Shown here one piece after another: positions 28,887 to 35,219 of a stretch of 53,139 nt of DNA. Position 1 is the stretch's first letter. Every line of letters begins with the position of its first letter. A program made the position numbers and the translations under genes. The notes beneath the pieces were generated by a model. That model saw nothing but the letters and a program-made list of their open reading frames with translations. It did no database searches and was not told the origin of the DNA. The DNA is from Bdellovibrionales bacterium (GTDB lineage: Bacteria > Bdellovibrionota_C > UBA2361 > RFPC01): assembly GCA_020434565.1 (NCBI GenBank), contig JAGRAO010000003.1:1-53139 (forward strand). The letters are read 5' to 3'.

Positions 28887-30374
<1,488 letters not shown>

Positions 30375-30557: not shown

Positions 30558-30600
30558 GCTTCTACTGTTGAGGGAGGAGGCTTCCTTCAGCAGTAGAAGC
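30558..30600 (+). repeat. 20-bp hairpin with three-base loop
   Basis: GCTTCTACTG (30558-67) pairs perfectly with CAGTAGAAGC (30591-600). The inner TTGAGGGAGG pairs with CTTCCTTCAG mostly through regular and G-U pairs, leaving loop AGG. No U-run follows. It could end the che operon by another mechanism or be part of the leader. Confidence 0.65.
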
Positions 30601-30649
30601 AGCGTGATCCAAAAAAGGTTTTCTGGCTGAAGACATCTTTCTTCGCCAA

Positions 30650-30704
30650 CTCTCCTTTCTCCTAAGCGCACCCCCACATGGCGGGCGTTTCGGAGAAAGG
30701 AGAG
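30650..30704 (+). promoter_or_regulatory. Hairpin sequestering the Shine-Dalgarno of the next gene
   Basis: CTCTCCTTTCTCC (30650-62) is the exact reverse complement of GGAGAAAGGAGAG (30692-704). The stem continues inward, after one mismatch, with six more pairs (30664-69 with 30685-90). The 3' arm is itself the AAAGGAG ribosome-binding site, four bases before ATG 30709. In the closed form ribosomes should be blocked. Confidence 0.7.
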
Positions 30705-30708
30705 CAAC

Positions 30709-31800
30709 ATGTTGAAATTCTCGTATTGGCTCCTTGCGTGCCTCTGTACGCTTGTCGCAGCCGCGCACGCGCAGGCGGTGCAACCGGAGGAAGCTCGGAC
30801 CTATGTATGGGCGATGAACCCGGTCGCTCCGTACGTGATCGAGCAGAACTTAGAAAAGTCTGAACTACAGTCGAGTGTGGGAGAAGCTGAAACGAACCTG
30901 AGAGGGTTTGATGTTCTGCTTCTGAAGCTCATCGACGAGAGGATGCCGGAACGCTTCGAATTCCGGATCCTCAGACCTGAGGAACTCCACCTGAAGGCGG
31001 AGGGACTCAGCGACAGTGGCTACGACGCGCTTGGAGGTGCAATTACCCGAAGCGCAGAACGGCTGAAGAATCCGAACATCCTCTTCAGCGACAGCTATCA
31101 CCGTTCCGAAGTTCGGCTTGCGACCCGGTGGGATGAAGGGCGCGAAGCAGGCCACGGCCTGATAGCATTTTTCTCTTCGGGCTTGGAGCCCTTTCGAAAG
31201 TCGCTCCACTGGTCTCACCTTCTTTTCATGGTGTTCCTGATCTTTCTCGGAGGACTGACGGTGAAGATCGTCACTTCAAAGAAAGTAAAGGCATGGCAGG
31301 CTGGTGTGATGTTGTTTTTCGTATTTGCGATAAACAATACCTATCTCACAGCGATGCTCGTCACTGCTCTTCGAGTCCAGGCGACACCGTACGTGGTTGG
31401 GCTCGATCGCCTCGAAGACCTCGCCACCGCCGGCAAGCCGGTGGCTGTAAAGGCGACATCCCCGAGCGTCGAAGAAGTCGAGTACTGGCAGGCAGAGGCG
31501 ATTCCTTTCGCTTCGGTGAACCAGATGTGCCAAGTGGCGTCTGATCCCGACAACGACTACGACATCGAGCTTGTCGCGCACGACTGGGAGATCCTCAACT
31601 GGGAGATCAACCGGAACTTTCCTGGTCGGTTCAAGTTCATCTTGGACGGATTTGGTGAGCAATTCTATGCGTTCATGTTCCGGCCCGACATCGATCCGGA
31701 CTTTGTGAGGCGGTTCAACATCGCTCTCGCCGAAGTCCTCGAAGACAAGAATGCTCAGGCGAGGCTGCGCCTCTACCTGCCTCACGAGGGTGAGGAGTAG
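30709..31800 (+). CDS. Prokaryotic ionotropic glutamate receptor-like protein
   Basis: Layout: signal peptide (1-22); first binding lobe (about 30-150) with G-F-D-V-L-L-L-K-L, G-G-A-I-T-R-S-A-E-R and L-F-S-D-S-Y, where R118 matches the ligand-carboxylate arginine of this fold; TM1 (170-188); a short basic loop; TM2 (196-222) with N-T-Y-L-T-A-M-L-V-T, resembling the gate helix of glutamate receptors; then the second lobe (about 225-357) with the D-R-L-E-D-L helix. A bacterial periplasmic binding fold split by membrane helices is the GluR0 arrangement. Unlike GluR0, no pore loop or selectivity filter lies between the two helices. GC-rich codons differ from neighbours. Ligand unknown. Confidence 0.65.
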   Translation: MLKFSYWLLACLCTLVAAAHAQAVQPEEARTYVWAMNPVAPYVIEQNLEKSELQSSVGEAETNLRGFDVLLLKLIDERMPERFEFRILRPEELHLKAEGLSDSGYDALGGAITRSAERLKNPNILFSDSYHRSEVRLATRWDEGREAGHGLIAFFSSGLEPFRKSLHWSHLLFMVFLIFLGGLTVKIVTSKKVKAWQAGVMLFFVFAINNTYLTAMLVTALRVQATPYVVGLDRLEDLATAGKPVAVKATSPSVEEVEYWQAEAIPFASVNQMCQVASDPDNDYDIELVAHDWEILNWEINRNFPGRFKFILDGFGEQFYAFMFRPDIDPDFVRRFNIALAEVLEDKNAQARLRLYLPHEGEE

Positions 31801-31898: not shown

Positions 31899-34800
31899 AT
31901 GCGCGATCTGACGCACGAAAACACACCGGCTCAGCCAGTCTCATCGGGACGACCCCCCGAAGAAACTGTGCGTCCAAAAATTGACTCGGATTTGAGAGAT
32001 TTCAATCTTGAAGCCGGAAAGCTTCTCGGTGTTCTTATCCAGAGTAAATTTGAGCAAGAAGTCCGGAGTTGGCTCGGAAAGCGGGTAGCATTTGCGTGCG
32101 CAGACCCCGGTCTGGACGAGCACTGCCTCTCCCAGATAGCTGAACTTGATGCAAACTTTCTCCGAGAGATGTCGGGATATATTCCCGAACTTTCAAAGAG
32201 GGGATTGAGCGAGCTTCAGCGTTTTGCCTATTCAGTGGCCTCCGATGTTGTCGGAGAAGAAGTGAGTGCCGTGCGCGAAAGGCATCTCGCTGTTTGGAAA
32301 GAGGCTGGAAAGGAGATCTCTCGAATTTGGGAAGAGATTGGAGAGTGTCGTGGTCGTTCCCCAAATGGGAAACGAGAGACCGAACTTCGTGACGAATGGA
32401 AAACTCTCAAAGCGCGTCTGAAAATTGAAATTCAACAACTCGTCAATCTCTATGGAGAGGAAGAGGTCAAGCCTAAAGAACTGAAGCTTGCGGTGCATAC
32501 TATCCAGAATGAGGCCGAGGATATAGGAGAAGAGCGTTACCTTGAAGCAGATAGGAGAGCATCGGAGCTCAAATCATCCATTTCGAGATTCTCGATTAAC
32601 ACGGATAAGATGTTTGAAGTGCTTTCGGATCTGTCACCGGGAGAAGCAGATCTCCTCTCCCGAGTCTATAAAGAGAAATACGGGCGCTCGTTCGAAGATG
32701 TTCGGGAAGAGGCATACAGCAAAGTTTTTCGTCAGCTAACAACGTTTCTTCGATTCAATGTGATTAAAGACGTTTTCGCAGATCAATTCGGTATCGGGGC
32801 AGGGTTGGTTGAACAGTTTACAAAACGGAGCAAACTCGGAGCGGTTGTTAAAGCGGTTTGGCCCGGAACGTGGATCCGCAAAGCCCGCGACGGATATCAT
32901 TTCCTTCGAGAGAACGAATACTCCTTGAAAGAAGTTCCACGGTTTTGTCGGGAAACCCTTGAGCTTTTTCGAGACAAAGTAAAGCTGTACGAGGAAGCCC
33001 GACTCAAGCGATTACTTAAGGGTGACCGCCTCGAGGCGGACACGGATTCTATCTTTCTCGCTCTGTGGGATCGACCTTTAAACCCTCTTCTTCGACGTGA
33101 TGTTGATGATATCGTGGCCTCAACTCTTCTTAAACACTCGCGAGAAGAGCGAGCTCAGATTGAAGCTGATTTTAATAGTCGCTACCGTCATAAATTCGAA
33201 AAATCAGTTCCAGCAATTATCCGCGATCAGCTCGGTTCAGAAGCAGCAGAGGAACTCCTGGCGGAGATTCGAAAGACCGCTCTTGATTCATTGAGTCTCA
33301 AAACTGCCAAGAAAATTACCGTAGCAATTCGAGAACTTTTGATCTCTCGAAAGCTCGAGATAGAGACAAAGATTCGAGGTCTCGTAGAGGACGAGGAGAT
33401 AGCAGACTATCTTGTTGCAAAAATTCAGGAAAAGAAACCGAAAAAGGTTCCGATAGCAGCAACGAAAAATTTTCGTGAAGTAGTCCGGGACACGCTTCCC
33501 GGCGTGGCATCGGAGTACCTCTTGGCGCGATTGGATGGCGACCGCCCTCGAGCAGTGGCTCTCCTTCTCGAAGTCGGCTCCAAAAAGCGATTCTTTTGGT
33601 CGAAACGGTGTAACGGGGAATTTTACGCAGCGCTAAGAGAACTCTCTGAACTTTCGCCTGATGAGAGACAGCAGGTCCTTCGAATTGGCGGCTCGTGGAA
33701 ATCAATCATGGAGAGTGGATCTCCGATCGGGAATTGGTTGCGAGAGGCACTCTCGAACGACCCCGGCAGTGAATACCGTCGAGAAGCAGCGAGGCTTCGA
33801 TGTGCCGTGAAAAAGCTCTCGGGTGAGTATCCGGAGTCGGTACTTTTTTCACGGGAACGGGAGGAGAACCTAGCCATCCTTAAAACGTATGAGGAGATCT
33901 TTGGAAAGAGCTTTCTCTCTGAGTATGGGAAGTTGATGGGAAGAGACGGTAAACGAGGACTTCAGAACTACATCGATAATGGTCGCCTCTCGCGTTCGGA
34001 GCAGGTGAGAGACTGTTTGCTCAAGTTTAATCCCGACTACAAGGGGCTCGTATCACTTCTCGCCGGTTACACTTATGAAGAGCAACAGGAGCTCACCAAG
34101 GAATATGCTAGAAATTTCAGACAAATCTCCCACCCGTCAAAATGGGTTGGGAGCCTTTTTTCAGAGCTTCGAGAGGCTCGAGAGAGGGGGCAGGGGATCC
34201 GCGAGGTTTTACGAAAACCCCGCGAGGTGATCTTTGAGCCAAGAAGCCTTGAAGAGGATGTCGCTCGCCAGTTGAGTGGATATCGGCTGCTTCGAGTTCA
34301 GCGGCTCTTGAGAGGCGAACCGAAGACATTACAGGATGTCTACGAGGATTTTCTTGCTCGATACTCCGAAGATCACAGCGGTGCAGAGTTTCGCTACTCG
34401 CCAGGAGAAAGCGAGGGAATCGCCTCGAGAATGCGGAATCTCATGCGTTTCGGTCGAAAAGAGCCACGTAAGCTTGGTCGTAAGGACGAGGATTGTCGCC
34501 TTGTCGGAGAGTTTTATCACGAAGTGATCCTGCCAAAGCTTGAATCCCGTCAGAAAATTCCTGAGAGAGAAAGTCGACAGTTCCGTCACCTTGTTGCTAT
34601 CGCATACCAAAGTCTTGATGCCTATCAAGAGGGCAAGCAGAAGCTAGCTTCTACAATCGCAAACTTTGGTGAATTGGCAGTTTTTCCGACGGCAGCAACA
34701 GCGGTAAAGTTTTTTGGATTACCCACCTTGGGAGTGATGGGGTCAGTGACCTGTATCGTGATGGCTTACAGAATGTTCGTGAAAGATCACATTCTCGGTG

Positions 34801-35219
34801 AGGGGTACGAGCGGCGGGCAAAGTTTGTCGATGCTTTTATCTCATCAGCAAGTGGAGTCTCTCTTGGAGGAATGCGCTACGGGATGTATACCGCCCAAGG
34901 CCTTACCGCTGTTTTTCGTGGTCCCCTCTTTCGTCGAGTGCTTTCGACGGCCCTTAAAGTCGGAATCAAAACTGGGATGAAAACTATCGGGAATACAGTT
35001 GTCTCGAAACGCCTCCTTGGTGATCGTGAGTCTGGACAGGTTCGACTCCATACGGAGAGGGATCGTATCGAGTTTCTCGCAAATAAGGGGCGACAGATTG
35101 AACATAAACGAGAAGAGCAGGTGCGATCGGCTTATCTTAACCATGCCCACGAAGGCATAGAAGACTTCTTCCGAAAGCTTTCGTTCCTCTGTGGAGAAGA
35201 CCGACTATCAGATGCGTAA
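31899..35219 (+). CDS. Giant helical protein with annexin-like repeats
   Basis: Not assigned to a known family as a whole. The 1,106 residues are almost entirely helical and charged. A segment at about 233-275 (T-D-K-M-F-E-V-L-S...V-Y-K-E-K-Y-G-R-S-F) closely follows the annexin repeat pattern, and looser copies follow (around 385-460, 540-610, 650-690, 710-740, 800-840). Near residue 918-960 is a hydrophobic, Gly/Ala-rich segment, then a basic tail. No signal peptide. Function unknown; membrane or calcium-dependent lipid binding would be the guess from annexins. The ribosome-binding site is weak (GAAGAG). Confidence 0.7.
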   Translation: MRDLTHENTPAQPVSSGRPPEETVRPKIDSDLRDFNLEAGKLLGVLIQSKFEQEVRSWLGKRVAFACADPGLDEHCLSQIAELDANFLREMSGYIPELSKRGLSELQRFAYSVASDVVGEEVSAVRERHLAVWKEAGKEISRIWEEIGECRGRSPNGKRETELRDEWKTLKARLKIEIQQLVNLYGEEEVKPKELKLAVHTIQNEAEDIGEERYLEADRRASELKSSISRFSINTDKMFEVLSDLSPGEADLLSRVYKEKYGRSFEDVREEAYSKVFRQLTTFLRFNVIKDVFADQFGIGAGLVEQFTKRSKLGAVVKAVWPGTWIRKARDGYHFLRENEYSLKEVPRFCRETLELFRDKVKLYEEARLKRLLKGDRLEADTDSIFLALWDRPLNPLLRRDVDDIVASTLLKHSREERAQIEADFNSRYRHKFEKSVPAIIRDQLGSEAAEELLAEIRKTALDSLSLKTAKKITVAIRELLISRKLEIETKIRGLVEDEEIADYLVAKIQEKKPKKVPIAATKNFREVVRDTLPGVASEYLLARLDGDRPRAVALLLEVGSKKRFFWSKRCNGEFYAALRELSELSPDERQQVLRIGGSWKSIMESGSPIGNWLREALSNDPGSEYRREAARLRCAVKKLSGEYPESVLFSREREENLAILKTYEEIFGKSFLSEYGKLMGRDGKRGLQNYIDNGRLSRSEQVRDCLLKFNPDYKGLVSLLAGYTYEEQQELTKEYARNFRQISHPSKWVGSLFSELREARERGQGIREVLRKPREVIFEPRSLEEDVARQLSGYRLLRVQRLLRGEPKTLQDVYEDFLARYSEDHSGAEFRYSPGESEGIASRMRNLMRFGRKEPRKLGRKDEDCRLVGEFYHEVILPKLESRQKIPERESRQFRHLVAIAYQSLDAYQEGKQKLASTIANFGELAVFPTAATAVKFFGLPTLGVMGSVTCIVMAYRMFVKDHILGEGYERRAKFVDAFISSASGVSLGGMRYGMYTAQGLTAVFRGPLFRRVLSTALKVGIKTGMKTIGNTVVSKRLLGDRESGQVRLHTERDRIEFLANKGRQIEHKREEQVRSAYLNHAHEGIEDFFRKLSFLCGEDRLSDA

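Follow-up and report, generated by a model that had tools for sequence, protein, structure and literature searches.

The window analysed here is a whole stretch of 53,139 nucleotides from a Bdellovibrionales bacterium (contig JAGRAO010000003.1 of assembly GCA_020434565.1). The gene under study, P0001, is an intact open reading frame at positions 30709-31800 of the forward strand that starts with ATG, contains zero internal stops and codes for a protein of 363 amino acids. Upstream of it lies a complete chemotaxis cluster, which runs from a gene for an MCP with a dCache sensor (21163) through cheW, a response regulator gene, cheA, cheR, cheD, cheY and cheX to cheB, ending at 30374; cheD and cheB were named from inspection of their translations. 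The 334-bp gap between cheB and P0001 holds two strong hairpins (Table 1); of eight inverted repeats found in the window, they rank with the longest. The Shine-Dalgarno sequence buried in the hairpin next to the start codon suggests translational control of the receptor gene, and a search of Rfam returned no RNA family at these upstream hairpins. Downstream, a forward-strand gene (31899-35219) encodes a protein of 1106 amino acids with similarity to annexins (E = 1.1e-6 for the Pfam family PF00191, E of about 0.002 for structures of annexins V and VI). Annexins have been described in bacteria (PMC3894181), but this neighbour is very large. Third-position GC content of the P0001 gene was found to be 0.68, against a mean of 0.494 (sd 0.032, maximum 0.55) for the 27 other long genes of the window. 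This outlying value, together with the lack of relatives in sister genomes, suggests that the gene was acquired horizontally, so that its chemotaxis neighbourhood may be accidental.

Table 1 Features of the P0001 locus, in positions of the window
Feature	Position	Strand	Basis
Second strong hairpin between cheB and the P0001 gene (18-nt arms, 7-nt spacer)	30558..30600		Fold and inverted-repeat analysis
Hairpin directly 5' of the start codon (25-nt arms), Shine-Dalgarno GGAG (30699-30702) inside the stem	30650..30704	+	Fold of 30560-30730, z = -7.5
P0001 gene, loop-less glutamate-receptor-like protein	30709..31800	+	ORF; Pfam; 94-channel profile, 63.0 bits, E = 1e-21
Predicted N-terminal signal peptide, residues ~1-22	30709..30774	+	Hydrophobic MLKFSYWLLACLCTLVAAAHAQA; model helix 2-22; cleavage site by inspection only
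Binding lobe 1, residues ~29-142, with Y42, T113 and R118	30793..31134	+	PF00497 match; lobe-1 profile, 20.9 bits, E = 6.6e-7
R118 codon (equivalent of GluA2 R485)	31060..31062	+	Arg in 86/94 aligned channels
First transmembrane helix, residues 166-190	31204..31278	+	Hydropathy; AlphaFold helix 166-190
Short basic turn, residues 191-194 (KKVK), where channels carry the pore helix and selectivity filter	31279..31290	+	AlphaFold turn; G182-T214 spacing
Second transmembrane helix, residues 195-224, with AINNTYLTAMLVTALRV; similar to the gate helix of glutamate receptors	31291..31380	+	AlphaFold; anchored M2 score, p ~0.07; plant-GLR motif matched as well by 7/1333 control segments
Binding lobe 2, residues ~227-358, with S251 and D292	31387..31782	+	Lobe-2 profile, 41.1 bits, E = 1.2e-11
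D292 codon (equivalent of GluA2 E705; acidic residue for the ligand amino group)	31582..31584	+	Asp in 88/94 aligned channels

In P0001 a signal peptide is followed by lobe 1, a first helix, a short basic turn, a second helix and lobe 2. The predicted signal peptide places lobe 1 outside the inner membrane, and the basic connection between the helices agrees with the positive-inside rule if both lobes are outside. One significant Pfam family was obtained, SBP_bac_3 (PF00497, E = 3e-7, 30.7 bits against a cut-off of 26.4, residues 60-351), and its match is split by about 90 residues holding the two membrane helices, so that the protein has no uninterrupted soluble periplasmic domain. Hydropathy peaks between the lobes start at residues 169-173 and at residue 200. 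The original prediction had placed seven residues between the helices; the connection is indeed short, while its exact length varies from 4 to 9 residues with the method (hydropathy or AlphaFold).

An AlphaFold model computed with 55 relatives reached a pLDDT of 86.4 and a pTM of 0.78, with both lobes mostly above 90 and a four-residue join between the helices. This model was steered by the channel relatives in its alignment, so that it supports the fold but gives no independent view of how the hairpin packs; a model from the single sequence (pLDDT 36) was uninformative. Foldseek returned full-length GluA2 as the top PDB match (4u1x_D, E = 3e-14, 370 columns), and soluble glutamine-binding proteins matched the lobes. 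P0001 thus resembles the animal and plant receptors (GluA2, AtGLR3.4) across both clamshell and membrane helices, with a gate motif partly in common, but these have a pore loop (M2) and usually an M4 and an N-terminal domain, and P0001 leaves the Pfam family Lig_chan unmatched.

Close relatives of P0001 were found neither in the genome contigs collection (27 pattern matches, 0 confirmed), the viral contigs, the plasmids and the phages nor, with P0001 alone as query, in the phylum's 46 genomes. The phage collection gave one weak match (E = 0.2). Matches at E 0.035-0.35 in the phylum's genomes were taken as chance, and the one that was read (L002) is a cation-efflux-type transporter. A distant match with E = 1e-4 (G237) is a channel of the GluR0 type and has the K+ filter TVGYGD. 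From this sequence a channel set was grown, made up of 11 members from across the bacteria (seven belong to the phylum of P0001), 80 named from the genome contigs and two from the viral contigs. The 11-channel profile, built without P0001, gave it 36.0 bits, the best of 2000 shuffles reaching 6.3 bits, and the 94-channel profile gave 63.0 bits (E = 1e-21).

The lobes were then compared with the membrane part cut from every channel sequence, using equal-sized 16-member profiles and ten random channel sets. Without its helices, P0001 scored 45.7-61.7 bits (median 50) with the GluR0-type profiles and 9.7 bits with the soluble-SBP profile, the latter drawn from a small set (16) of little diversity. 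Held-out sequences were sorted correctly throughout, the channel profile being preferred by 7/7 real channels (by 18 to 44 bits) and the soluble profile by 16/16 soluble binding proteins (by at least 74 bits). By lobe and channel profiles, P0001 carries S1/S2 ligand-binding lobes of the glutamate-receptor kind, and its helix hairpin is inserted at the first crossover from lobe 1 to lobe 2, the same junction as in GluR0 channels. This contrast between lobe profiles is the strongest evidence that P0001 probably derives from the receptor branch. The order lobe 1 - TM1 - TM2 - lobe 2, originally likened to that of prokaryotic ionotropic receptors, was confirmed in its architecture, hairpin insertion point and binding lobes by the 94-channel profile, AlphaFold, Foldseek and the lobe profiles.

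The same comparison bears on a different origin, in which a soluble-type amino-acid-binding protein gained its membrane hairpin independently, would serve in anchored binding or scavenging, and would be kin to glutamate receptors by its binding fold only. Soluble amino-acid binding proteins of the SBP_bac_3 family, such as glutamine-binding protein, share the clamshell fold with P0001 as well as its sole Pfam family match, and the helices of P0001 are not significantly related to channel helices. The soluble proteins differ, however, in having no membrane hairpin and far less similar lobe sequences: the lobes of P0001 lie far closer to channel lobes (50 against 9.7 bits) and its insertion point is that of GluR0 channels. 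Nor was another SBP_bac_3 protein found in the genome, of which the assembly is 84% complete. Given the lobe-profile contrast, we regard this origin from a soluble-type protein as less likely, and indeed as improbable.

The absence of a selectivity filter, which had been predicted, proved correct. From G182 in the first helix to T214 in the second, P0001 has 32 residues where all 94 channels have 65-72 (median 68), and is about 36 residues shorter. The pore helix, selectivity filter and filter motif are all missing, and the pore-loop positions of the channel profile are skipped in the alignment. A profile of M1-M2 from which the loop had been excised (A5) matched P0001 in one piece (1-89), whereas other channels matched only from the second helix onward. 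The residues associated with the loop in channels have also changed, W186, E189 and R190 reading K, T and S in P0001 in the 94-channel alignment. The closest known systems are GluR0 and the "Group 1" prokaryotic receptors with a K+-type filter (Ger et al. 2010, PMC2950845), which are like P0001 in part order, insertion site and ligand residues and have the closest lobe sequences; they differ in the pore helix and TVGYGD filter, some 36 residues absent from P0001, and in the W..ER motif at the end of M1, which P0001 has lost. That study left 78 of 100 sequences with "somewhat different topologies" unresolved in its text (PMC2950845), and no description of a glutamate receptor lacking the pore loop was found in the literature. 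Because P0001 lacks the re-entrant loop of GluR0-type receptors, we class it as a relative of the ionotropic glutamate receptor channels rather than as one of them; it is a real but unusual variant.

Five GluR0-like proteins from the same phylum (L018, L020, L021, L022 and L023) share the architecture of P0001 but have a loop region of normal length, and P0001 scored only 16.4 bits with the phylum's 7-member lobe profile. Their filters already depart from TVGYGD (SGGPGD, TGKTxYxG, TIGTGD), as if filters eroded repeatedly in this lineage. Profile searches, with reduced recall, yielded no second loop-less relative in the phylum's 46 genomes or in about 490 others. These genomes are the less biased sample, since the filter motif was used in part to find the 80 genome-contig loci, which hence could not show loop-less forms. 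A wider search of 386 genomes with the A1 profile gave nine full-length matches, all unbroken through the loop region, and the last two A5 searches spanned 5 and 9 genomes from small phyla.

These relatives raise the question, posed with the original prediction, of whether P0001 is simply a deleted copy of a normal channel. The answer was divided: in every other member found, those of its own phylum included, the loop region has the usual length, so that the short loop is not general, but P0001 is far diverged and intact and has kept its ligand residues, and so is not a recently deleted copy of a channel that is normal otherwise. In a phylogenetic tree its branch, the placement of which is not settled, measured 2.96 substitutions per site against a median of 0.50. 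Since the branch is so far diverged and the residues adjoining the loop have changed too, the loss of the loop does not appear to be fresh. A decaying gene or an assembly artefact, that is, a channel gene minus its loop and heading to loss, would be in keeping with a singleton that was possibly acquired (third-position GC 0.68 against 0.49) and with the presence in its phylum of relatives that bear the loop. Set against the intact 363-codon frame, the start signal, the ligand residues retained despite such a branch and the changes beside the loop, this explanation strikes us as very unlikely.

Turning to the ligand site, five positions known as ligand contacts in GluA2 are kept in P0001, namely Y42, T113, R118, S251 and D292, which in established GluA2 numbering are Y450, T480, R485, S654 and E705. 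R118, singled out in the original prediction as the conserved ligand-binding arginine, was correctly identified and is the last residue of the stretch AITRSAER beginning at A111; GluA2 R485 binds the alpha-carboxylate of the ligand. T113 and S251 are the commonest residues of their columns among the 94 channels, and Y42 occupies the "P-[FY]" position. One classical lobe-2 contact, GluA2 T655, is a proline in P0001 (P252). Because these contact residues are kept, an amino acid is the likely ligand.

The membrane helices gave a less clear picture. Profiles of the GluR0 helices alone scored P0001 at -4.6 bits for M1 and -3.0 bits for M2. When anchored by register, M2 scored best exactly at the expected register, a score that about 7% of the 1324 membrane segments used as controls also reached (p ~0.07), while the score of M1 was reached by about 57% of controls (p ~0.57). 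A plant GLR gate segment scored 24 at residues 208-223; this template was picked after seeing the sequence of P0001, and 7 of 1333 control segments scored as high, a true glutamate receptor being one of the seven. The search for the glutamate-receptor channel domain that had been proposed as a check turned out negative, Pfam Lig_chan matching neither P0001 nor its isolated fragments; three of four positive controls were matched (P0002, L021 and L022), the fourth, L018, having the same architecture as P0001 and being likewise unmatched. Ion_trans_2 gave no match to P0001 either. Homology to the channel helices is therefore suggestive for M2, and for M1 we have no evidence of it. The predicted gate-like stretch NTYLTAMLVT does lie inside the second helix, but as sequence evidence for a gate the motif is only suggestive; given the weak M2 scores, the unmatched Lig_chan and the equal scores of controls, we downgraded the view of this helix as a proven gate helix.

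The main rival reading takes the second helix as the wall of a ligand-gated pore without a filter. In such an assembly of subunits the second helices would line a wide pore, with N210, T214 and V218 on one face, which closure of the clamshell would open with little ion selectivity. Two-helix channels such as P2X or ASIC are likewise without a re-entrant loop, and the helix length, the gate-like motif TAxLxxxLxV at the expected register, the polar residues N209, N210, T211, T214 and T219 within the membrane helix and lobes kept as in channels would all suit a pore. Its gate similarity is weak, however (p ~0.07), R222 sits where 88/94 channels carry Thr, and no ionotropic glutamate receptor is known to conduct without its pore loop. 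On balance we consider such a pore unlikely, even as the foremost of the rivals.

Our preferred reading, to which we give about even odds (0.5), is that P0001 descends from a GluR0-type channel, has lost the pore loop and acts as a membrane-anchored, non-conducting amino-acid receptor. Its clamshell, outside the inner membrane, would close on an amino acid bound through R118 and D292 and thereby pull the hairpin of two helices. Since P0001 has neither a selectivity filter nor a cytoplasmic domain, a signal could leave it only by rearrangement of the helices or through a putative partner located within the membrane or close to it. The analysis shows the intact frame, the homology and channel-type character of the lobes, the retained ligand residues, the hairpin at the insertion site of channels and the absence of the loop; descent by loop loss, the amino-acid ligand, any oligomeric state, the lack of conduction and the signalling partner are what we infer here. 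Against this reading stand the status of P0001 as a singleton in everything searched, the limited independent support from its model and a helix homology that is not significant alone. A regulatory, dominant-negative subunit co-assembling with a normal GluR0-type channel would have the same architecture minus the filter, and non-conducting subunits occur in other channel families; profile searches found no other GluR0-like gene in the genome, the assembly being only 84% complete, and we judge this the least probable of the explanations weighed. The broader proposition, that a glutamate-receptor fold without a pore loop serves here either as a filter-less pore of second helices or as a bacterial amino-acid receptor that acts purely through its conformation (metabotropic-like), we put forward tentatively and with some doubt. 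If true in either variant, coupling of clamshell to helix can persist without an ion filter. Glutamate-receptor channels described so far have a pore loop, and a natural loop-less version would be a small, purifiable protein in which the sensing of a ligand and the pull on the helices are separated from the selection of ions. It would bear on non-ionic signalling by glutamate receptors, which is debated for the animal receptors, and on the evolutionary joining of binding proteins with K+-channel pores, its weight being reduced by there being a single known member, with a function predicted from sequence and model.

Two minor observations were made along the way. The two helices of P0001 have in common a 21-nt imperfect direct repeat (31255-31275 and 31345-31365, encoding LTVKIVT and LTAMLVT), which may be due to chance. 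In BFVD, the best viral fold match to P0001 was E3T502 of Cafeteria roenbergensis virus (E = 8e-16), a protein annotated as an amino-acid transporter that looks to be of the glutamate-receptor type.
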